A stretch of 64,000 bases of DNA from NCBI GenBank assembly GCA_944342025.1, contig CALVMD010000003.1, forward strand, positions 99,510-163,509, in the 5' to 3' direction. The DNA comes from an uncultured Clostridia bacterium. GTDB lineage: Bacteria > Bacillota > Clostridia > Christensenellales > Borkfalkiaceae. The translations under genes and the position numbers were made by a program. Within the stretch, counting starts at the first letter, position 1. Each line of letters opens with the position of its first letter. Under the pieces are notes generated by a model, which was not told where the DNA came from, did no database searches, and saw nothing but the letters and a program-made list of their open reading frames with translations. Of the stretch, positions 43,165 through 54,452 are shown in pieces.

Positions 43165-46100
43165 TTATTTTTGCGTATCGTCTTTTTCGTCTCCGTAAGG
43201 ATCTTCCTCATCAGGAGAGGTCTCGTCTTCGACTTTATAAATTTCTTCTTCGCTGATCTCATCTTCATCGGGCAGAACGTCGTCTGTTTTAGGTTCTTCA
43301 GATTCGTCTGCCGCTTCTTCGGAAAGTTTCAACTTTCTGATATAACGCGTACGCCTTGCGTCGTAAGCCGTTGAAGTGCGGATCTTGTTTTTGCGCATAT
43401 TGCCGAGCAGCTTTTTGAGCAACAGTGCAATAAGCGTTACAAACAATGCTGCAGCCAAGATGATCGAGGGGATCAAAAGCCAAAGATTGGTATCACTCGT
43501 ATTATCGGTCGAATCAGTCGTTTCATCGTCGGAATCGGAAGAACTCGTTGCAACTTCGATCTCGCTTGCTCCGTAATTGACGAAGGTGTTATATTCGGTA
43601 TATCCGCTGTCGTCAGCATTGAAACGCAGATACGCTATTTCGTCTGTGTAAGCGGTCTCGTCATAGTCGGCAAAAGGATCGGAGTCCCTTGTTTCAAATT
43701 CGTTAGATTCATCGTAAGGCGCATAGCTCAAATGATCGTAGAGGGAGTAATGATAATAGATAAGGGAAGTGCCCTCTGCGGTTTCATTGATAAATGCGCT
43801 CGGATCTTCACGATATGCTTCGAGGATCGCATCGGCGGTAGTATAGGTGGTGTTGTTCAGTTTGCCTGCTTCGCCGAGAGAGAGGAGACTTTCTTCGAGC
43901 ATATCAGTGAAAGTAGATTCGTCCAAATCGTCGTAGCTGACCTGATCAAAAATAACGTAACCTTCATCACCGCTGTCGAGCATTGCGACTTCGCCATCGC
44001 GAGAGCCCATCCAGACTTCCAGACGGTAATCTTTTGATTCGTTCCCGGTCGCAATAAAGAAGTTTACATAGATCCATTGATTAACGGTTTCTTCGCTCCC
44101 GTAAATAACTTGAGAGAGAACTTTTTCCGTGGGTTCTTGCAGAGTAGCCGCTTCAAGCCGGTCTGCATCGACGTTTGCGTCGCGGAAATCCGTTACCTGC
44201 GTGCTGTAAGTGTCGCTGTCTTCATCATAATAGCGATAAAAACTGTCATTGTGTTTGTAGTAGATGATGTTTCCGTCCGCATCGACCAAATTTCCGTCGG
44301 TATCCGTCTCATAATTTTGCAGATTTGCGTAGTAGGTACCGCTTTGGTGATGGGAAGTCGTAGACCAAAGACCATTGCTCTGCATATAGAAGAGAGTGTC
44401 CGTATCTTGGTCGAATGCATCGTCGTCAGGATCTACCGTCACGACGTTTCCGTCTTCGTCATACCGATAGGAGAAGCCGGATGCATATTTCAGTTCGTCA
44501 CGATACCGCACTTGTTCGTCTTCATCGGTCGAAGTATCGATCAGGTAGACATAAGCCACCGCGTTGGCGCTTAATTTCAGCCTGAGATTGACCTGACCGT
44601 AAGAGGAGGTGCCTATATTGGTGGTCCCTCCGACGAAGCCGTAGGAAATATCGGCGGCGTCTTCTACCGTTTTGACAATCAGGAGCGGCTGTGTGGAATC
44701 GGTTCCTACGATCGTATTCCACCAGTTATTCGCAGTGATCGAAGCCGTTATTGCATCGGTATAGCTGTTGACGACTGCTTTGATCGCATCGTTCTCAAAA
44801 TAATTAGCGGCATATTTTTTGTTCAGAAGGCCCGCATTTTCATATTCGTTTGTGCCGGTCGTAATATCTTCGCCGCCTACATAGCCGGAGTTGCCGTATA
44901 CCCCGGCGTAATTGCGCAGGTCGGCAAATCCGTTTTCGATCTCCGAACTGCCTTCGGTGCTTTCCGAATAAGCCGGATCGTCGAATACAACGGAGGAATC
45001 GGCGGCGCTGGGATCGGTTTCGAGCGCGGCTTCGACGGCATAGGTAGAGGTGCTGGCAGAGGCAAGCTCATACTCGGTGTCGTTCAGGTAAGCATATTCA
45101 AAACCTGTGAACGCCGCATATCCGTCCGCATATGCCGAGAAGGCGGTATTTACAATATCGGTAGGTCCGAAATTAAAGCGAAGGGAAAACGTAATGGACT
45201 CATCCGTATCGTTTGTCACAAAGAATGTGCAAAGCTGCCATCCGTCGAAAATGTCTTCGACAGTGCTGTTGTCGTCTTTTAAATCTACAGTGTCGAGGGT
45301 CGTTGTGTCCACAGCCCCGACAGAGGCCGTCGTATCGTAGTTGATCAGGCTGACCGTTGCGCCTGTGCCGCCGCCGATTTCAGACGTTTTGACCCAGAAA
45401 CGGATCATCATGCGGCTGTCGGCGTCTAAGGTAAACAGGGAAGGTGCGTTCGTATCTGCACCGGTCAGATTCTGCGTATAGGGCATGCCTTTTCCGCTGT
45501 ACAGCATCAGGATCTGAGCATTTTCTCCGAATAATTCCGAAAAGCGCTCGAAATCGGAAGATACGGCATCGGGATAATCGCTGCTGATCAGGTCGGCATA
45601 TGTTTTTACGCCGGATCTGGTTGCATCGTTGTCGTCTTTGAGCGCATTATAAGAAGAGGTGCCGAGATAGTGCTCCAATGTATAGCTGTTTCCGTCGGAA
45701 TCTTTTGCGTCGGCGACTGTTTCCGCCGGGGACAGAGTATTGCTGAGAGAAATATCCGCCGTGCCCGCTTCGATCGTATCAAGATCGAGCGCAAACGCTT
45801 TGTAAGACGAAGAGATGCTGTCGATGAAATGAGTATCGGCGGCTTTAGGCGCCGTGTCCAGGAAATAGCTGTCGTCCACGCCGGAGTCGGAGACCGCTGT
45901 TGCGTATTCTTCGGAAGTCATGACTTCATAAGAAAGGTCATCGAAGAAAGCATATCCCTGTACGTATTCGAAGTTATTGTCGCTCACCGCATTCGTCCGT
46001 CCGAGCCCGAGATATACGGTAAAAGTCGTCGTTGCATAAGAGGAGGCATTCAGATAAAGCGTATATTGCACCCAGCCGTTGTTTTCATTGTCGGGATTGA

Positions 46101-46887
46101 TTGCTTGCGTGTCGATATTGCCAATGATGATCGGGGCCTGCTCCGTTCCGCCGACGGTATTGGCAATTTCAATATACGCGCCTCTGTTGCCATTCACGGC
46201 CGTGTTCTCGTTATAGGTAAGACCGTAAGTTTTGGCCCATACAGAAACCGATACGGCAGTTCCGGCGCTGAGGGTTATGGCAGAAGAGGAATATCTTGCC
46301 GCCGTTCCGTAAAGATCGGAACGGTAATTGTGCAACATGAGCACATGCGTATCCGATTCTGATTCATCTGCATAATGTGTGCCGGGATTGACAGCGTTGA
46401 TGTCCTCTGCGGGAAGGTTCTCGTAAGTCAGATCTTCGCTTTCGTTATCCCAAGTCGCATTTGCGATGTCCCAACCGGGAACGTCGTAATCGCTGTCAAT
46501 GTCGGTATAATATTCTTCGGGAGGATCTTCCGTATTGTCTTCGTCCTGCTGTTTTTCATATTCAGTTCTGGCGTAAACAAATTTTTGAGCCCAGTCGACG
46601 GAAGTATCGACGATCCCCGATTTTGCAAGGGAAGTGCTGCCCTGTGTGGAGAGACTCCAACTGTCGGGAGTGGCGATCAGGTATGCGCCGCTGTTGTCAT
46701 CGAAAAATTCGAAATTGGCATTGGCGAATGTCTGCGTGTCCGTCTTGCTCGGCGTATCGGTCTCATCGTCGTCGTCCGTGCTGTTGTTGCAAGCAACAAA
46801 GATCATCGAACATGCGGCGATCAGCATCGCCAACGTCAAGATCCACGTTGTAATTCTCAGTTTGCCAAGTTGTCTGTTTTTTGCCAT
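43165..46887 (-). CDS. Giant acidic lipoprotein with three beta-sandwich-like units and a C-terminal membrane helix
   Basis: 1,240 residues, rich in Asp, Ser and Thr. The N-terminus is a signal with two possible lipobox Cys (IAAC, residue 26; FVAC, residue 33) followed by a DDDDETD linker. Three units share a pattern of a jelly-roll type: strand SVSVWAKT / MIRFWVKT / VNLRLKLS; GWVQYTLYL (271) / GWQLCTFFV (549) / QWIYVNFFI (937); and GYAFFDDLSYE (311) / GYAAFTGFEYA (589) / GYVIFDQVSYD (976). The third has an insert of about 140 residues with DEDGN-type repeats. A helix near 1134-1157 precedes an acidic cytoplasmic tail of about 83 residues. AAAGGTG precedes ATG 46887. Carbohydrate binding is a guess from fold style; function unknown. 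Confidence 0.85.
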   Translation of the reverse strand: MAKNRQLGKLRITTWILTLAMLIAACSMIFVACNNSTDDDDETDTPSKTDTQTFANANFEFFDDNSGAYLIATPDSWSLSTQGSTSLAKSGIVDTSVDWAQKFVYARTEYEKQQDEDNTEDPPEEYYTDIDSDYDVPGWDIANATWDNESEDLTYENLPAEDINAVNPGTHYADESESDTHVLMLHNYRSDLYGTAARYSSSAITLSAGTAVSVSVWAKTYGLTYNENTAVNGNRGAYIEIANTVGGTEQAPIIIGNIDTQAINPDNENNGWVQYTLYLNASSYATTTFTVYLGLGRTNAVSDNNFEYVQGYAFFDDLSYEVMTSEEYATAVSDSGVDDSYFLDTAPKAADTHFIDSISSSYKAFALDLDTIEAGTADISLSNTLSPAETVADAKDSDGNSYTLEHYLGTSSYNALKDDNDATRSGVKTYADLISSDYPDAVSSDFERFSELFGENAQILMLYSGKGMPYTQNLTGADTNAPSLFTLDADSRMMIRFWVKTSEIGGGTGATVSLINYDTTASVGAVDTTTLDTVDLKDDNSTVEDIFDGWQLCTFFVTNDTDESITFSLRFNFGPTDIVNTAFSAYADGYAAFTGFEYAYLNDTEYELASASTSTYAVEAALETDPSAADSSVVFDDPAYSESTEGSSEIENGFADLRNYAGVYGNSGYVGGEDITTGTNEYENAGLLNKKYAANYFENDAIKAVVNSYTDAITASITANNWWNTIVGTDSTQPLLIVKTVEDAADISYGFVGGTTNIGTSSYGQVNLRLKLSANAVAYVYLIDTSTDEDEQVRYRDELKYASGFSYRYDEDGNVVTVDPDDDAFDQDTDTLFYMQSNGLWSTTSHHQSGTYYANLQNYETDTDGNLVDADGNIIYYKHNDSFYRYYDEDSDTYSTQVTDFRDANVDADRLEAATLQEPTEKVLSQVIYGSEETVNQWIYVNFFIATGNESKDYRLEVWMGSRDGEVAMLDSGDEGYVIFDQVSYDDLDESTFTDMLEESLLSLGEAGKLNNTTYTTADAILEAYREDPSAFINETAEGTSLIYYHYSLYDHLSYAPYDESNEFETRDSDPFADYDETAYTDEIAYLRFNADDSGYTEYNTFVNYGASEIEVATSSSDSDDETTDSTDNTSDTNLWLLIPSIILAAALFVTLIALLLKKLLGNMRKNKIRTSTAYDARRTRYIRKLKLSEEAADESEEPKTDDVLPDEDEISEEEIYKVEDETSPDEEDPYGDEKDDTQK

Positions 46888-47086
46888 ATAGAACACCTTT
46901 ACAGTAATTTAAAGATTTTGACCGTACTCTTTTCCTTTGCGGTTAAACAAAAATCGTACTATCTTATTCTAATATAAAAGGCGACTAAAAGCAAGCGATA
47001 ACGATTAAAAAAAAGTGAAAATTGAATTAAATTTTCCGATTAAGACGCAAACTAAACAAGAAAATGCAAGAGGAGGAGGGGCAAAT

Positions 47087-47960: not shown

Positions 47961-48022
47961 TTGTACGGTTATACCGTTGATTTTTATGCAAAGTATGCGT
48001 GTTTGCAAGGGAGGCATTTTAT

Positions 48023-49339
48023 TTGGGTACATTTGCGAGCGGAGTTCATCCAAAGGGAAACAAATCGATCGCCGAAGATAAGCCCATCGGGCGTGGCCCT
48101 GAGCCGAAAGAAGTCTATGTGCCGCTTTTACAGCACATAGGCAAACCTGCCGTCCCCGTTGTAGCGGAAGGACAGCGCGTTTTGTGCGGAGAGCTGATCG
48201 CTAAAGCCGCGGAAGGATTGTCGGTCAATGTCTATTCGCCCGTTTCTGGTACGGTAAAAGGCGTGGTCGGACACATCTCGCAGACGGGAAAAAAGACGGA
48301 TCATGTTTTGATCGAGAATGACTTTCTCAACGTTAGCACATATCTGGCTCCTTTGAAGGAAGAGACTCGTGAGACGATTTTGACACGCATAGCGGAGGCG
48401 GGAATCGTCGGCATGGGCGGAGCAACTTTTCCTACGGCGGCCAAGTTGCGGGCAGAAGGGAAAAAGGTGGATCTTCTGATCGTGAATGCTGCGGAGTGCG
48501 AGCCGTATATCACTTGCGATTACAGGATCATGCTCGAATATACGGAGCAATTGGCGGAAGGTATCCGCCTCTGTATGGTCGCGGCAGGTGCAGAGCGGGC
48601 GATCGTAGGGATCGAAAACAATAAAAAAGACGCTGCGGACAAGCTCATGCGGGCGGTTAATGGCGGCGTGAGCGTCAAGATTTTGAAAACGAAGTATCCG
48701 CAGGGCGCGGAAAAACAGCTCGTTTACAGCTGCTGCCGCCGCGTGATCCCCGAGAACAAGCTGCCTGCCGATGTAGGGGTTGTCGTCGTCAATGTGCATA
48801 CGGCGCTGGCGGTATATAAAGCCGTGCGCGAGAATACGCCTTGTTATGAGCGCGTGATGACGGTAAGCGGCAAGCGAGTCGAAAAACCGTGCAACATTTG
48901 GGTAAAGAACGGTACGCCTTATCGGGACATCGCGCAGTTTTGCGGCGGCGATGAGAATTGCGAGCGTATCGTTGCGGGCGGCCCTATGATGGGCGACGCA
49001 GTTTTTTCTCTGAAAGTCTGCGCGGGAAAAGGATCTTCGGCTCTTTTATTTTTAGATGAAGGCGAGTGCGACGAAAGGCGGTCGGAAGCGTGCATCGGAT
49101 GCGGAAGATGTGTACAGGCCTGTCCGATGGGGCTTTCTCCCGTATTCATTGAAAGAGCTCTGTTCGATAAAAATTATAAAGAGGCGCAGGATTTCGGTGC
49201 GGATTACTGCATCGGATGCGGTTGCTGTTCCTATGTTTGCCCGTCTCACCGTTTCCTTGTGCAGAGTGTGAAACTGGCAAAAAAGATTCTGCGCGAACGG
49301 CGCGAAAAAGAAAAGGCGGGTGAGAAGGCAAATGGCTGA
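48023..49339 (+). CDS. rnfC: Rnf complex subunit RnfC
   Basis: Peripheral subunit that exchanges electrons with NAD(H) in the ferredoxin:NAD+ oxidoreductase, which pumps Na+ or H+. 438 residues. GMGGATFPTAAKL (about 131-143) is the glycine-rich nucleotide/FMN loop shared with NuoF. Two 4Fe-4S motifs lie near the C-terminus: CIGCGRCVQACP (from Cys357) and CIGCGCCSYVCP (from Cys396). I start at a TTG at 48023, 8 nt after GGGAGG, because the conserved GTFASGVHPKGNKS begins there; the frame extends 8 codons upstream to an ATG with no site. Overlaps rnfD by 8 nt. Confidence 0.95.
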   Translation: MGTFASGVHPKGNKSIAEDKPIGRGPEPKEVYVPLLQHIGKPAVPVVAEGQRVLCGELIAKAAEGLSVNVYSPVSGTVKGVVGHISQTGKKTDHVLIENDFLNVSTYLAPLKEETRETILTRIAEAGIVGMGGATFPTAAKLRAEGKKVDLLIVNAAECEPYITCDYRIMLEYTEQLAEGIRLCMVAAGAERAIVGIENNKKDAADKLMRAVNGGVSVKILKTKYPQGAEKQLVYSCCRRVIPENKLPADVGVVVVNVHTALAVYKAVRENTPCYERVMTVSGKRVEKPCNIWVKNGTPYRDIAQFCGGDENCERIVAGGPMMGDAVFSLKVCAGKGSSALLFLDEGECDERRSEACIGCGRCVQACPMGLSPVFIERALFDKNYKEAQDFGADYCIGCGCCSYVCPSHRFLVQSVKLAKKILRERREKEKAGEKANG

Positions 49340-51854
49340 GATAACCAATTATAAAGTAGCTTCTTCTCCGCACGTGGCTGACGGGGCGTCTGTGCGCCGT
49401 ATCATGCTCGATGTTCTGATTGCGCTCTTGCCCTGCGTCGTGTGCGGCGTATTGTTTTTCGGACTTTATTCGCTCATGCTCATCGTCATTTGCGTGGCGG
49501 CTTGCTTTGCGAGCGAGCAGGTTTATAATCTGATTCGCAAAAAGCCGATCACGACCGATCTTTCTGCCGTGGTTACGGGTGTTATCCTCGGGCTTAATTT
49601 GCCGCCGCGTGCGCCGTGGTATATTCCGATCATCGGCGGCTTGTTTGCGATCGTTATCGTAAAGATGCTGTTCGGCGGCCTCGGGAAAAACTTTGCCAAC
49701 CCTGCGGCAGCCGCGCGTGTTTTTTTGCTCCTTGCATACAGCGGCGTCATGACGTCTTTTATCGGGGCGGATATTTCTGGCAATATTTTGTCCGCGGACG
49801 GTTCTACGGGCGCAACGTATCTGGGCGGCGGCGTAGATGCTCTCGCCGATTCGTTCCTCGGAGTGGAAGGATATTGGGGCTATGTCTTGCAACTGTTTTT
49901 GGGCAGTGTCGGCGGCAGTATCGGCGAAACAAGTGCGTTCGCGGTTTTGATTGGCGGCGGATATTTGATCGTGCGCCGAGTGATCGACTGGCGCATTCCG
50001 TTCGTGTATCTTTTGACGTCGGCTGCGATGGTCCTTCTTTGTTACGGCAGTGCGCAGGAGATTTTATTGCAGTTGTTTTCGGGCGGACTGATGTTCGGCG
50101 CTTTTTTCATGGCGACCGATTACGCGACTTCGCCCAAATGGAGATATAACCGCGTTTTATTCGCTTTCGGCCTCGGCGTCGTCACTGTTCTGATACGCAG
50201 GTTCGGGTCTTATCCGGAAGGCGTGTCGCTGGCGATTCTGTTTATGAATCTTCTTGTCCCCGCGATGGATAAATTCCTCATTCCGGTCCGTTTCGGACAA
50301 ACGACAAGGAGCGGGAAACCGAAACCGCAGGTCATGAAATGGGGGATGCGCGGATTGTGCATCTTTCTTGCGGCGGCACTCGCCGTTGCGGCGCCTATAA
50401 CCGCTGTTGCCGAATACAGGCGGCCGCGCGAGATCTCTTTACCCGGTTCATATGCTTACGTGAAGGAGGCGTCGATCGACCGTTCGGGGAATTATTACTT
50501 TGACGTGCAGGGGTCCGCTTATCTTGCCGATTTCGATTATACACAGCCTCTCGAATATAAAGTGCGGATCGATGCCGACGGCATCGTGTCCGAAATAGAG
50601 CCGATCACGCAAAGTACGATGGGTTATACGGCGGAACTTTCCCTGTTTGTAGGGAAAGGTTATGCCGAGATCTCCGCACTGACCGATCTTTCCGCCGATT
50701 CTGATACGAGCGCAACGTATACGAATACTGCGCTCAGAAATATGATCGAGGAATGCTATCGTGCGGTCGATTTGTATGAAAACAAGATCTCCGTTTCGGA
50801 CGCTTTTCCTTCTATTGCGGCGGCGTCGGAGTCTAAACTTTTGGGCGGCAGATCGTTCGTCGTTGAGGGGGTGGCAAAGATTCCTTTCGGCGAAAGTTCA
50901 TATGAACAGTCGCTCTGCTATTATGTCAATATCAAAGAAGGAGCGGTGAACGCGATAGAGCCTGTTACGCAGAGTACGATGGGGTATGTTGCGGAGCTGT
51001 CCCTGTTTATCGGAAAAACGTATGAGCAGATCAAAAATCTGACCGATCTTTCGTCTGATTCGGATCTGAGTGCGACGTATACCAATACGCAGCTGAAAAA
51101 CATGCTGCTCGAATGTTTCCTTGCCGACGATATGCTTGGCGGTGAAATGGCTGTTTCAAACGGATATTCTTACATCTCGGCGGCGACAAATTCTGCCATG
51201 TTCGGAGGAAATTCGTTTATCGTTACAGGGACGGCTCATATCGAAGAGTATGATTACGATCAGGCGCTTTGTTACTATATCAACATTGAGAACGGTATTG
51301 TGAGCGCGATCGAGCCGATCACGCAGAGTACGATGGGGTTTGTTGCCGAAGTTTCTTTGTTTGTCGGGAAGACGTATGCGGAAATCGCTGCATTGACCGA
51401 GCCGGATATCGATGCGGAAACGAACGCGACCTATACGAATCTGCAGGTAAAAAATATGGTGCTCGAATGTTTCCTCGCAGATGACCTTATGAACGGGGCG
51501 ACAGAACTGCCGGACGGAACAGAATACGTAACGGCATCGGCAAATTCAGCGCTTATGGGCGGCAAATCGTTCCTTGCCGAGGGAATTGCCGATCTGTACG
51601 AATATGATTACCGTCAGACCCTTTGTTTTTACATCAACATTGAGAACGGCGTCGTGAGCGAAATCGTTCCGATCAGGCAAAGTACGATGGGGTATTCGGC
51701 AGAACTTTCCCTGTTTTTGGGAAAGACCGAAGAAGAGATCTCAGCCCTGACAGATTTGTCGGCGGATTCGGAGACGAGCGCGACGCGCACGAATACCGCT
51801 CTCAAAAATATGATTCTCGAATGTTTCTCTCTTGCGGGAGGTGATGCGCAATGA
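49332..51854 (+). CDS. rnfD: RnfD with four tandem FMN-bind-like domains
   Basis: 840 residues, about 2.5 times normal RnfD. Residues 1-335 are a standard membrane subunit with the flavin motif D-GS-TGAT at 156-162 (expected covalent FMN on Thr162). An extra membrane helix (341-360) follows, then four repeats: 373-483, 484-602, 603-721 and 722-840. Each has GxVxxIxPxxQSTMGY, LFxGKT, and D-xx-[T/L]-[S/N]-A-T near its end, similar to the FMN-binding domain of RnfG. The Gly of [S/T]GAT is Ser, Ser, Asn and Ser; the Thr (462, 582, 700, 818) is kept. Start ATG 49332 lies in the rnfC end; the stop overlaps rnfG by 4 nt. No frameshift: the fusion is one open frame. Confidence 0.93.
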   Translation: MAEITNYKVASSPHVADGASVRRIMLDVLIALLPCVVCGVLFFGLYSLMLIVICVAACFASEQVYNLIRKKPITTDLSAVVTGVILGLNLPPRAPWYIPIIGGLFAIVIVKMLFGGLGKNFANPAAAARVFLLLAYSGVMTSFIGADISGNILSADGSTGATYLGGGVDALADSFLGVEGYWGYVLQLFLGSVGGSIGETSAFAVLIGGGYLIVRRVIDWRIPFVYLLTSAAMVLLCYGSAQEILLQLFSGGLMFGAFFMATDYATSPKWRYNRVLFAFGLGVVTVLIRRFGSYPEGVSLAILFMNLLVPAMDKFLIPVRFGQTTRSGKPKPQVMKWGMRGLCIFLAAALAVAAPITAVAEYRRPREISLPGSYAYVKEASIDRSGNYYFDVQGSAYLADFDYTQPLEYKVRIDADGIVSEIEPITQSTMGYTAELSLFVGKGYAEISALTDLSADSDTSATYTNTALRNMIEECYRAVDLYENKISVSDAFPSIAAASESKLLGGRSFVVEGVAKIPFGESSYEQSLCYYVNIKEGAVNAIEPVTQSTMGYVAELSLFIGKTYEQIKNLTDLSSDSDLSATYTNTQLKNMLLECFLADDMLGGEMAVSNGYSYISAATNSAMFGGNSFIVTGTAHIEEYDYDQALCYYINIENGIVSAIEPITQSTMGFVAEVSLFVGKTYAEIAALTEPDIDAETNATYTNLQVKNMVLECFLADDLMNGATELPDGTEYVTASANSALMGGKSFLAEGIADLYEYDYRQTLCFYINIENGVVSEIVPIRQSTMGYSAELSLFLGKTEEEISALTDLSADSETSATRTNTALKNMILECFSLAGGDAQ
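50448..51851 (+). repeat. Four in-frame tandem repeats in rnfD
   Basis: Coding repeats of about 354-360 bp (50448-50780, 50781-51137, 51138-51494, 51495-51851). Shared blocks at protein level are QSTMGYxAELSLFxGKT, ALTDLSxDS and YTNTxLKNMxLECF. Nucleotide identity is only partial, so the expansion is not recent. Confidence 0.92.
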
Positions 51855-52396
51855 CGGCTAAAGTCAAATCGATGATACAGGGCATTGCGGTCCTTGCATG
51901 TATTGCTCTCGTATGCGGGCTGCTGCTCGGTGCGGTGCATTATCTGACATATGTCGACCCTCTGCAATTGACCTTTGACCGTTTTGCGGAAGATACGGGC
52001 GCAGCTTTCAGCGAAATGACGGACGAAGACGGAGAGAACTTTGATAACGGCAGAATCGTTTATTATGCGCTATCCGATGACGGATCCTATCATGCGTTCC
52101 TCGCTTCGGGCAGCGGCGGCTGGGGCGGCGACATTCAGATGTATGTCTATTTGCAGGGAAGCACGATTTCTAAGGTCGTTTTAGGAGACAATGCCGAGAC
52201 GCTTTGGGATACTTTCGAGCCTGACTTTTTTGATCAGTTTGTCGGGCTGGATGTCTCTTCTGTCGACTCTTTCGCGTCTTCGGACGTGGTGACCGGAGCG
52301 ACGGCGAGCAGAACGATCCGAGCGGTGGCAGGGGCGATCGATTCCGTCGTGCGCTATTACAATGCAAATATTGCAGGAGGAGAGGATCGTGGATAA
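51851..52396 (+). CDS. rnfG: Rnf complex subunit RnfG
   Basis: 181 residues: one N-terminal membrane helix (about 10-32), then an extracytoplasmic FMN-binding domain. The attachment motif is intact, D145-VV-T148-G-A-T151, so ApbE-type flavin transferase should link FMN to Thr151. The protein is short and its N-terminal half of the domain diverges from typical RnfG (lacks a clear ETPGLG). Its motif frames the comparison with the four RnfD repeats just upstream. Overlaps rnfD and rnfE. Confidence 0.9.
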   Translation: MTAKVKSMIQGIAVLACIALVCGLLLGAVHYLTYVDPLQLTFDRFAEDTGAAFSEMTDEDGENFDNGRIVYYALSDDGSYHAFLASGSGGWGGDIQMYVYLQGSTISKVVLGDNAETLWDTFEPDFFDQFVGLDVSSVDSFASSDVVTGATASRTIRAVAGAIDSVVRYYNANIAGGEDRG

Positions 52397-53066
52397 GAGA
52401 AAGATCAAAGAGACTGTGATCGGCGGGCTCATCAAAAACAATCCGACGTTTGTCCTTGTGTTGGGGACATGTCCTACGATCGCCATGACGACTTCTTTGG
52501 CGCAGGCGTTTGCTATGGGGATCGCAACGACGTTCGTGCTCATTTTCTCAAACCTGTTTATCAGTTTGCTGCGCAACCTGATACCGGATAAAGTGCGCAT
52601 TCCGTGCTATATCGTTATCATTTCTACGTTCGTCACGATTGTCGATATGGTCATGCAGCGGTATATGCCCGACCTATACAGCACGATGCGCGCGTTTATT
52701 GCGCTCATCGTCGTCAACTGCATCATTTTGGCGCGCGCCGAAAGTTACGCTTCCTGCAATAAACCGCTTTACAGTATGCTCGACGGCGTTTCGATCGGTC
52801 TCGGGTTTACGGGGGCACTTTGCCTGATCGGCATCGTCCGCGAGTTTTTGGCGGGCGGCGCCTTCGCCGGGATTTCTATTCCCGGCTATCCGGCGATGTC
52901 GGGAGTCGGGGCGAGCGCGTTCGGGTTTATCGTGTTCGGTTGCTTGATGGCGCTTTTCAACTTTGTGATTCAAAAGATCAATGAACGCAAAGACAAAATG
53001 AAAGCGGCTGTTCTTCCTCTGTCGGAGGGGAAGGTAGAGCCGCTTAAGGAGGTGGCGGAAAAATGA
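52389..53066 (+). CDS. rnfE: Rnf complex subunit RnfE
   Basis: 225-residue membrane subunit with about six helices. KNNPTFVLVLGTCPTIAMTTS near the N-terminus, with a Cys that in Rnf/Nqr binds an iron centre between RnfA and RnfE, and EFLAGGAFAG are characteristic. The C-terminal 35 residues are charged. The start is a GTG at 52389 inside the rnfG end with GGAGGAGAGG before it. Confidence 0.94.
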   Translation: MDKRKIKETVIGGLIKNNPTFVLVLGTCPTIAMTTSLAQAFAMGIATTFVLIFSNLFISLLRNLIPDKVRIPCYIVIISTFVTIVDMVMQRYMPDLYSTMRAFIALIVVNCIILARAESYASCNKPLYSMLDGVSIGLGFTGALCLIGIVREFLAGGAFAGISIPGYPAMSGVGASAFGFIVFGCLMALFNFVIQKINERKDKMKAAVLPLSEGKVEPLKEVAEK

Positions 53067-53647
53067 CAGCGTCTTTGATTTCCGTCATGTTTGCGGCGGT
53101 CATATCCAACAACATCGTTCTTTCGCAGTATCAGGGGATTTGTCCGTTCCTCGGCGTTTCCAAAAAAATATCCAGTTCGGCGGGTATGGGCTTTGCCGTG
53201 ATATTCGTCATGGCGATTTCCTCAGTATTTACATGGCTGGTCTATAATTACATTCTGTTGCCGCTTGAGATCGATTATCTGTATACAATGGCTTTTATAC
53301 TCGTCATTGCCAGCCTTGTGCAGGTCACGGAAATGGTGGTCAAACGCTATTCTCCTACGCTGTACAGCGCATTGGGCGTTTATTTGCCTCTCATTACGAC
53401 CAATTGCGCAATCCTCGGAACGGCTAACAGCGCCGTCGTTTATAATTCTTATAATTTTGTATATACGTTCGCCGTATCTGTTGCAACCGGCGTGGGATTT
53501 CTCTTTGCGATTCTTCTCCTTGCGTGCGTTCGCCTGAAAACAGACAGGGCGGATATTCCGAAGTGTTTCAAAGGATTTCCGATTACGCTCGTAACGGCCG
53601 CGATCATGGCGTTGGCGTTTGCGGGATTTTCCGGGATTTTGGCGTAA
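53063..53647 (+). CDS. rnfA: Rnf complex subunit RnfA
   Basis: 194-residue membrane subunit, six helices, homologous to RnfE. NNIVLSQYQGICPFLGVSKK at about 14-33 carries the Cys of the shared iron centre, and TNCAILGTANSAV the second half of the pseudo-symmetric motif. GGAGG precedes the ATG; 4-nt overlap with rnfE. Confidence 0.95.
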   Translation: MTASLISVMFAAVISNNIVLSQYQGICPFLGVSKKISSSAGMGFAVIFVMAISSVFTWLVYNYILLPLEIDYLYTMAFILVIASLVQVTEMVVKRYSPTLYSALGVYLPLITTNCAILGTANSAVVYNSYNFVYTFAVSVATGVGFLFAILLLACVRLKTDRADIPKCFKGFPITLVTAAIMALAFAGFSGILA

Positions 53648-53657
53648 GGAGGCAGGC

Positions 53658-54452
53658 ATGGAGATATTCATTCAGATATTGATCGCGGGAGGCATCATGC
53701 TTGCCGTTGCGCTTGTATTCGGAGTGATCCTTGTTATATGTTCCAATGTGTTTGCCGTCCGGAAAGACGAGAGAATCGAGCAGGTGGAAAACCTGCTCGC
53801 AAAATCCAATTGCGGCGGCTGCGGAAGGGCCGGCTGTGCTCAGTTTGCCGAGGCACTTATCAAAGGCGAGGCAAAACTTTCCGATTGCAAAGCGACTCCT
53901 GCTGCGAACAAAGAGCAGATCGCCAAAATTATCGGGGGCGGAGAAGTCGGTGAAGATACCGTAGCGGTGGTGCATTGTAACGGCGGCAACGCCTGCTATG
54001 ACAAATACGATTATCAGGGATACGGCAACTGCGCTTCATGCGAACTGATCGCAGGGGGCGTCAAGGCGTGTCCGGTCGGGTGCATCGGCAAAAAGACCTG
54101 CGTTGATGTTTGTCCGCATTTTGCCATCGAAGTGGGCGACGGAGGATATGCGGTTGTCAACAAGGAAAAATGTATTTCTTGCGGCGTATGTATAGATAAT
54201 TGCCCCAAGCATATTATCGGGCGAATCCCGAAAAAAGCGGCCGTGTATATCGCCTGTTCCAATCACGGCAAGGGGAAAGATGTTATGGAGCTGTGCAAAA
54301 ATGGTTGCATCGGCTGCGGAATCTGTGCAAAAAACTGTCCGTCGGGGGCGATCGTCATGAAAGACGGTTTGCCGGAGATCGATTATACAAAGTGTGTCGG
54401 ATGTAAAATTTGCGTGAGCAAATGTCCTCGTCATTGTATTAAGGAGCATTGA
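53658..54452 (+). CDS. rnfB: Rnf complex subunit RnfB
   Basis: Ferredoxin-facing electron entry subunit, 264 residues. One N-terminal helix (about 7-29), an Fe-S domain with Cys52, Cys55, Cys60 and Cys77 (CGGCGRAGC), and several CxxCxxCxxxC clusters in the C-terminal part (CISCGVCIDNCP, CIGCGICAKNCP, CVGCKICVSKCP). TAAGGAGGC lies before ATG 53658. Last gene of the rnf operon; no ApbE flavin transferase is encoded in this window. Confidence 0.95.
   Translation: MEIFIQILIAGGIMLAVALVFGVILVICSNVFAVRKDERIEQVENLLAKSNCGGCGRAGCAQFAEALIKGEAKLSDCKATPAANKEQIAKIIGGGEVGEDTVAVVHCNGGNACYDKYDYQGYGNCASCELIAGGVKACPVGCIGKKTCVDVCPHFAIEVGDGGYAVVNKEKCISCGVCIDNCPKHIIGRIPKKAAVYIACSNHGKGKDVMELCKNGCIGCGICAKNCPSGAIVMKDGLPEIDYTKCVGCKICVSKCPRHCIKEH

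Follow-up and report, generated by a model that had tools for sequence, protein, structure and literature searches.

A 64,000-nucleotide stretch of the genome of an uncultured Clostridia bacterium of the family Borkfalkiaceae (assembly GCA_944342025.1, contig CALVMD010000003.1, positions 99,510 to 163,509 of the forward strand), hereafter the window, carries an rnfCDGEAB operon at 47999-54452 whose rnfD gene encodes a long C-terminal tail of four repeated domains, which we call beads (Table 1). Rnf is a main energy-conserving pump of anaerobes, for which outward delivery of electrons is a further possibility. Five of the six operon proteins were identified by family scan, with rnfA named by position. 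Counted from the ATG at 49332, RnfD has 840 residues (a mechanical list of open reading frames opens the same frame at GTG 49320, giving 844), and its stop codon and the start of rnfG share a four-base overlap. Assignment as RnfD follows from operon context and full-length family matches, with PF03116 covering residues 9-322 (E 1e-104) and TIGR01946 scoring 275.7 bits against a cut-off of 207. The adjacent RnfG is divergent, at 17.6 bits against a TIGR01947 cut-off of 102, yet its attachment motif is intact. A preliminary description of this DNA had read a single frame encoding RnfD with its own TGAT motif, an extra helix and four repeats of about 118 residues; the family matches and a structural model bear this out, and the proposed attachment residues Thr462, Thr582, Thr700 and Thr818 are correctly placed.

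Table 1. Features of the rnf operon and of the extended rnfD gene, in window coordinates
Feature	Position	Strand	Remarks
rnfC	47999..49339	+	family scan
rnfD, encoding 840 aa: RnfD core, then the added helix and the four-bead tail	49332..51854	+	
RnfD core, residues 1-322	49332..50297	+	PF03116 at 9-322
FMN attachment site of RnfD itself, DGSTGAT (residues 156-162)	49797..49817	+	Thr162
Added helix in the membrane, beyond the conserved part of RnfD (residues 333-363)	50328..50420	+	predicted to carry the tail outside
Bead 1, residues 372-486	50445..50789	+	motif DSDTSAT at 50697-50717, Thr462
Bead 2, residues 490-606	50799..51149	+	motif DSDLSAT at 51057-51077, Thr582
Bead 3, residues 610-724	51159..51503	+	motif DAETNAT at 51411-51431, Thr700
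Bead 4, residues 728-838	51513..51845	+	motif DSETSAT at 51765-51785, Thr818
rnfG, encoding 181 aa with one FMN_bind domain that bears DVVTGAT	51851..52396	+	
rnfE, Rnf-Nqr membrane subunit	52362..53066	+	E versus A assigned from gene order
rnfA	53063..53647	+	named by position and sequence
rnfB, poly-ferredoxin subunit	53619..54452	+	family scan

The attachment threonines follow one another along the tail at 120, 118 and 118 residues, and the four beads score 129-149 bits each against a profile that includes them. These scores and the presence of 73 distinct beads in 37 genomes put the repeats beyond chance. The FMN_bind family (PF04205; FMN, flavin mononucleotide) matches the whole protein at 25.4 bits against a cut-off of 22, and beads 1 and 3 taken singly reach 15.8 and 14.5 bits, both under that cut-off; a PF04205 search of the organism's own genome listed RnfG alone and not the bead protein. 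Because single beads miss the Pfam cut-off, the case for their fold rests on the repeat profile, structural modelling and profile-profile comparison. An AlphaFold model of one bead (56 aligned beads) has a mean pLDDT (predicted local distance difference test) of 89.3 and a pTM (predicted template modelling score) of 0.84. Foldseek against the PDB ranked the RnfG of Clostridium tetanomorphum first (7zc6_G, prob 0.99, TMq 0.52, E 0.053) and that of Acetobacterium woodii fourth (9eri_G, prob 0.98, TMq 0.60, E 0.13). In a model of the full-length protein (mean pLDDT 77.8, pTM 0.59, with the core partly below 50) each bead consists of four strands and a long helix, and in all four the attachment Thr is found at, or close to, the N-terminal end of this long C-terminal helix, as it is in 7zc6 RnfG. 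Profile-profile comparison agrees, pairing the RnfD beads with beads found on RnfG in sister genera (96%, E 1.9e-9; 84% in a smaller comparison) and with the RnfG core of the genus (86%), versus 12% for the sister RnfG core, a profile of few sequences; the RnfG beads themselves pair with the genus RnfG core at 93%. The modelling thus predicts for the beads the FMN_bind/RnfG fold that the preliminary description had proposed. A bead-alignment profile run against solved structures gave no useful homologue (of its two matches one was a CAP repeat, the other a short hypothetical protein), and a single-protein scan of the genome contigs detected no relative.

The tail is predicted to lie on the outer side of the membrane. 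RnfD in solved Rnf complexes has ten membrane helices. Ten helices with a cytoplasmic C-terminus, followed by one added helix, would place the beads outside, and in all 33 genus RnfDs tested by the positive-inside rule the residues preceding the added helix carry a higher net charge than those following it (means +3.9 versus -0.4). The added helix and charge pattern together support the location first suggested for the repeats.

Beads accompany RnfD throughout the genus Candidatus Borkfalkia, a group of gut Clostridia. PF03116 was detected in 37 of 40 genomes, and all 37 genomes with an RnfD carry beads on it (34 from the 37 searched first and three from a second search). One bead is present in 12 genomes, two in 17, three in 3, four in 3 and five in 1, with one split bead in G025; the count for G034, placed among the two-bead genomes, is a lower bound (at least two) for an interrupted gene. 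Three assemblies lack a whole rnfD: in G034 the core leaves the end of contig C83 and the beads start at base 9 of C161, in G025 a bead is divided between two contigs, and in G018 (locus L029) RnfD occupies two frames of one short contig, reflecting either an assembly error or a broken gene. Across 121 genomes of the family, PF03116 occurs in 61, of which 48 lie outside the genus; the listed PF03116 frames of these 48 span 150-435 residues, except for one of 498 in G450 that has no tail, as against at least 480 residues for single-bead frames of the genus (except the cut G025). Further afield, a bead profile run against a sample of 396 genomes of the order found no RnfD beads outside the genus, its matches being two genus members, one chance hit and one ordinary FMN_bind protein, and in a sample of 391 genomes of the class only the organism's own genome matched. 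The weak matches of the order search outside the genus were set aside on reading, L092 as MutL-like and L093 as an ordinary FMN_bind membrane protein. Apparent RnfC-RnfD fusions (909-1085-residue frames in G001, G016 and G022) were likewise rejected: the part preceding RnfD is basic, of low complexity and unlike RnfC.

The genus beads, 74 alignment rows representing 73 distinct beads (two partial G025 rows overlap), retain the residues expected of a substrate of the flavin transferase ApbE. The Asp six residues before the attachment position is present in 73 of 73 and the acceptor Thr in 72 of 73, and these two residues and the Ala between them form the three most conserved columns; loss of the Asp and Thr among homologues had been named in the preliminary description as grounds for abandoning its proposal. 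Where the published consensus, D-x-x-[S/T]-G-A-[S/T], has Gly, most beads have another residue (Ser 56, Gly 16, Asn 1); the loss of Gly noted in the first account holds for all four beads of the window and not genus-wide. Gly-type and Ser-type beads coexist within single proteins: among the 17 two-bead proteins, bead 1 has Ser in all 17 and bead 2 has Gly in 12. On a bead tree of few columns and many open forks, the position switches at least four times with Asp and Thr constant. The Ser is coded by AGY in 27 rows and by TCN in 29, and Thr and Asp also use mixed synonymous codons. The repeated switches, retained Asp and Thr and mixed AGY and TCN codons suggest that the Gly position is maintained and selected at the amino-acid level rather than decayed, in keeping with the earlier argument against decay.

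The same alignment bears on a different chemistry, in which a Cys found 13 residues after the Thr in 71 of 73 beads would be the active group for thiol redox or cross-linking, with or without flavin. The beads of sister RnfGs have a Cys of their own, at +6 instead of +13, in 29 of 51 scored by pattern (a few mis-scored). A single conserved Cys per bead provides no disulfide within a bead, and the conservation of Asp and Thr would be left unexplained unless flavin were involved; we regard this proposal as very improbable. One further conserved residue, the Lys of an F-x-G-K motif (67 Lys and 4 Arg in 74 rows), was considered as an equivalent of NqrC Lys207 and dropped, as its spacing differs and the window RnfG has no Lys there.

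Several observations weigh against reading the tail as a string of covalent-FMN domains of this fold. Beads 2 and 4 scanned alone give no FMN_bind match, and the Foldseek E-values are weak, with no match at or below 0.001. NqrC Lys207 is required for flavin transfer, and the beads show no clear counterpart of it. For want of the Gly, 57 of 73 beads depart from the published motif, among them the four of the window, and one bead, the third of G002, has lost the Thr. A 2025 review of ApbE gives a consensus that includes the Gly and reports that a single Gly-to-Ala change in another target reduced flavinylation to about 50%; an Asp-to-Ala change had little effect in one target. In a C. tetanomorphum gel, covalent flavin was seen in RnfG and none in RnfD.

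Other sites of the same pump vary at the Gly position too. Thr is invariant in the 37 RnfGs of the genus, where the Gly position is occupied by Gly in 31, by Ser in 5 and by Asn in 1. At the attachment site of RnfD itself, Asp and Thr are invariant in the 35 proteins counted (G034 and the unreadable site of G018 are left out), and the Gly position has Gly in 14, Ala in 16 and Ser in 5. In 15 of these 35, a Pro occupies the next position of the motif (TAPT or SAPT), with Asp and Thr kept. Among solved complexes, C. tetanomorphum RnfD reads DGVTTAT to Thr153 and A. woodii RnfD DTVTTAT to Thr156 (from a PDB alignment, positions counted from the printed numbering), and covalent FMN is stated to be on T153 (7zc6) and T156 (9eri); both proteins thus miss the published ApbE motif though modelled with covalent FMN. 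Because of the gel result, the C. tetanomorphum precedent rests on a 4.27 Å map. Since RnfG and RnfD of the genus vary at this position, and TTAT carries covalent FMN in solved RnfD, loss of the Gly argues little against flavin. Rather than being fatal, the altered motif is probably tolerated, and it is not peculiar to the beads; the changed motif of the preliminary description is real, and less exotic than it appeared, the Gly being dispensable for the covalent FMN modelled in solved RnfD and about half of the flavinylation surviving the Gly-to-Ala change in the other target.

These comparisons also inform the possibility that the beads are flavin-less scaffolds, which would have kept the FMN_bind fold, lost the cofactor as Gly became Ser, and now space or shield the pump surface. 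The non-consensus motifs and the bead lacking Thr are what such a history would leave. It accords poorly with Thr, Asp and the intervening Ala being the best conserved columns, with Gly and Ser beads sharing one protein and switching repeatedly, with the same Ser or Asn variants in 6 of 37 RnfGs, an FMN-dependent protein, and with the TTAT precedent. We consider it quite unlikely, and of the two options first raised for the repeats, a multi-flavin chain or a flavin-less scaffold, the evidence favours the chain.

An enzyme for flavin attachment is available. The organism's own genome has one ApbE (G000:C14:6593-7453), which aligns across the catalytic core with solved ApbEs, and ApbE is present in 38 of 40 genus genomes. 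We compared 30 of the 38 genus enzymes with the 25 best-scoring sister ApbEs from 51 sister genomes with a match. The TSGD motif has become TSAD in 24 and TSSD in 5 of the 30 genus enzymes, with TSGD in 1, versus Gly at this place in 25 of 25 sisters; all 30 have Met in place of the Ala of AKGYA, which is present in 21 of 25 sisters; and the G-x-S-S loop of the sisters is mostly M-S-N. A putative catalytic pair, assigned by alignment and spacing as the motif Ser and a His 16 residues on, is kept in all 30. This genus-wide shift of the ApbE active site alongside the relaxed target Gly is a correlation within one lineage, as seen from sequence comparison. Co-evolution of enzyme and motif is only suggestive, because the sister G455 pairs an RnfD DGMTSAT with an unchanged TSGD ApbE and because the TSSD enzymes are not independent: four of the five have a placed RnfD, and these fall in one clade.

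In sister genera, beads of the same kind stand on RnfG. Matches to a profile of RnfG beads came from 32 of the 201 genomes sampled from the family, spread over 4 of 18 genera (g26, g28, g30 and g145); no genome of genus g1 in that sample matched. RnfG of the present genus is a single-domain protein in all 37 genomes examined (stop-to-stop frames of 180-292 residues) and differs in this from multi-flavinylated RnfG. We fetched 31 loci, 29 picked for a match and 2 for RnfD, with G349 and G450 seen earlier; 32 frames had beads above 40 bits, and 28 of these, in 28 loci, also matched the RnfG core by profile, with 1-6 beads. The 52 full sister RnfG beads, read by eye, have [T/S]GA[T/S] in 43 (3 ambiguous), NGS[S/T] in 5 (all G553), NAT in 2, DAT in 1 and CAT in 1. 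The G553 protein (L187, frame -3755-7174) is an RnfG with six beads in a 1139-residue frame, five with the altered motif NGSS or NGST. At three other loci (L185 in G537, L186 in G545 and L188 in G557) the RnfG core match falls into two pieces with beads between and after, as if inserted inside RnfG. In L176 (G218), an 801-residue frame (+195-2600) with an RnfC-like end scores 57 bits against the bead profile at residues 567-663 and has no intact attachment motif, possibly a bead-like insert in RnfC. Among the matches listed for a sample of 398 genomes of the phylum, three long RnfD frames were opened, and two proved to be fusions of RnfD with a single RnfG (L202 in G985 and L203 in G658), so an RnfD with a helix and FMN_bind domain has arisen elsewhere. 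In another RnfD, L204 in G1325, the DGLSTAT motif is closely followed by a repetitive Ser/Gly/Thr-rich insert made up of several nearly identical units.

Overall, we favour as probable a model in which beads bearing covalent FMN are tethered to RnfD and branch electrons from the outer flavins of Rnf. Electrons in Rnf travel from RnfA/E by way of the RnfG FMN to the two flavins of RnfD, FMN and riboflavin, and on to RnfC. The bead string would be anchored to the pump through RnfD, with the added helix placing it on the outer side, next to RnfG and to the FMN of RnfD itself. In nearly every bead, the final Thr of D-x-x-x-[S/G/N]-A-T would be joined to FMN by ApbE, and the flavinylated beads could then exchange electrons in either direction with the outer flavins of these two subunits. 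Such a side branch of the usual ferredoxin-to-NAD+ route would serve storage or a putative outside acceptor. The computation supplies the anatomy, the predicted fold and position, the conservation across the genus, the varying bead number and the presence of ApbE; the covalent attachment, the branching or exchange of electrons and the outside acceptor we infer. A strict outward wire, part of one of the two options first raised for the repeats, is less likely than branching from covalent flavin beads and claims more than the evidence supports. In the tandem flavoproteins studied by Tong et al. 2023 (PMC10339131), three FMNs share one potential, -184 mV, across flexible linkers and react with O2, and directionality is argued against, which speaks against a wire. 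More tentatively, and with some doubt, Rnf may have gained a built-in flavin chain on RnfD in which Ser/Asn-type motifs are flavinylated by the genus-altered ApbE and ferredoxin electrons exit at the outer face, the bead type having moved between RnfG (in the sisters) and RnfD.

The flavinylated beads could also act locally, either by storing electrons or by helping to dock RnfG near RnfD through a putative contact, with no path to outside acceptors. A single bead, as in 12 of 37 genomes, is short for a wire, and the RnfD tree, with 12 of its 41 inner branches open, implies at least 16 changes of bead number, so the length of the string is not critical, which counts for local action. The shared potential and flexible linkers of Tong et al. 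point the same way, and RnfG must swing far between RnfAE and RnfD. As docking aids, up to five beads on RnfD, and six on a sister RnfG, look excessive. We think a purely local role unlikely and prefer the branching model.

Beads on Rnf are already published. Meheust et al. 2021 (PMC8238504) described multi-flavinylated RnfGs in RNF clusters, including RnfGs in Christensenellales with a multi-haem domain, and proposed a second electron path to outside acceptors. Those proteins likewise carry several FMN_bind domains on an outer Rnf subunit; in contrast, the beads described here sit on RnfD behind an added helix, RnfG is plain, and most beads lack the Gly. SaFMN3 and CbFMN4 of Tong et al. resemble the tail as tandem small FMN_bind domains in beads-on-a-string arrangement, and SaFMN3 was fully flavinylated by mass, as were single domains of both; they differ in being secreted or anchored, in their DxxxGAT motif and in standing outside any ion pump. 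Solved RnfD and NqrB proteins (7zc6, 9eri, 8ahx and 7xk3) share the RnfD core, its ten helices and a covalent FMN near the outer face, with TTAT in 7zc6 and 9eri, but have neither added helix nor beads (Rnf chains of 310-366 residues). The G985 and G658 fusions place an FMN_bind domain outside behind an RnfD core and added helix, but this is one RnfG-like domain with DAVTGAT or DALSGAT and no repeats. The Nqr/Rnf-like two-subunit complexes of Huang et al. 2024 (PMC11334425), for which one-way outward electron flow was proposed, combine an NqrB/RnfD-like subunit with an NqrC/RnfG-like protein; in these, the RnfD-like subunit ends in a cytosolic, NAD-binding domain and not in flavin beads outside. 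We found no report of RnfD beads in the open-access literature, the passages seen naming RnfG alone. New here are the different carrier subunit, the relaxed motif and the lineage-wide series.

Upstream of the operon, on the opposite strand, the open-reading-frame list contains a 1243-residue Asp/Thr-rich putative lipoprotein with a C-terminal hydrophobic stretch (43165-46896).

The genus offers a natural graded series of one to five beads; related genera differ in the subunit that carries them, and within one clade the ApbE motif is relaxed. Should the beads prove to be flavinylated, searches for [S/T]GA[S/T] alone would miss real sites, among them the four beads of the window, the 21 of 35 RnfD sites that lack Gly and at least 6 of 37 genus RnfGs. 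For the organism itself, the bead tail could let the pump send electrons outward.

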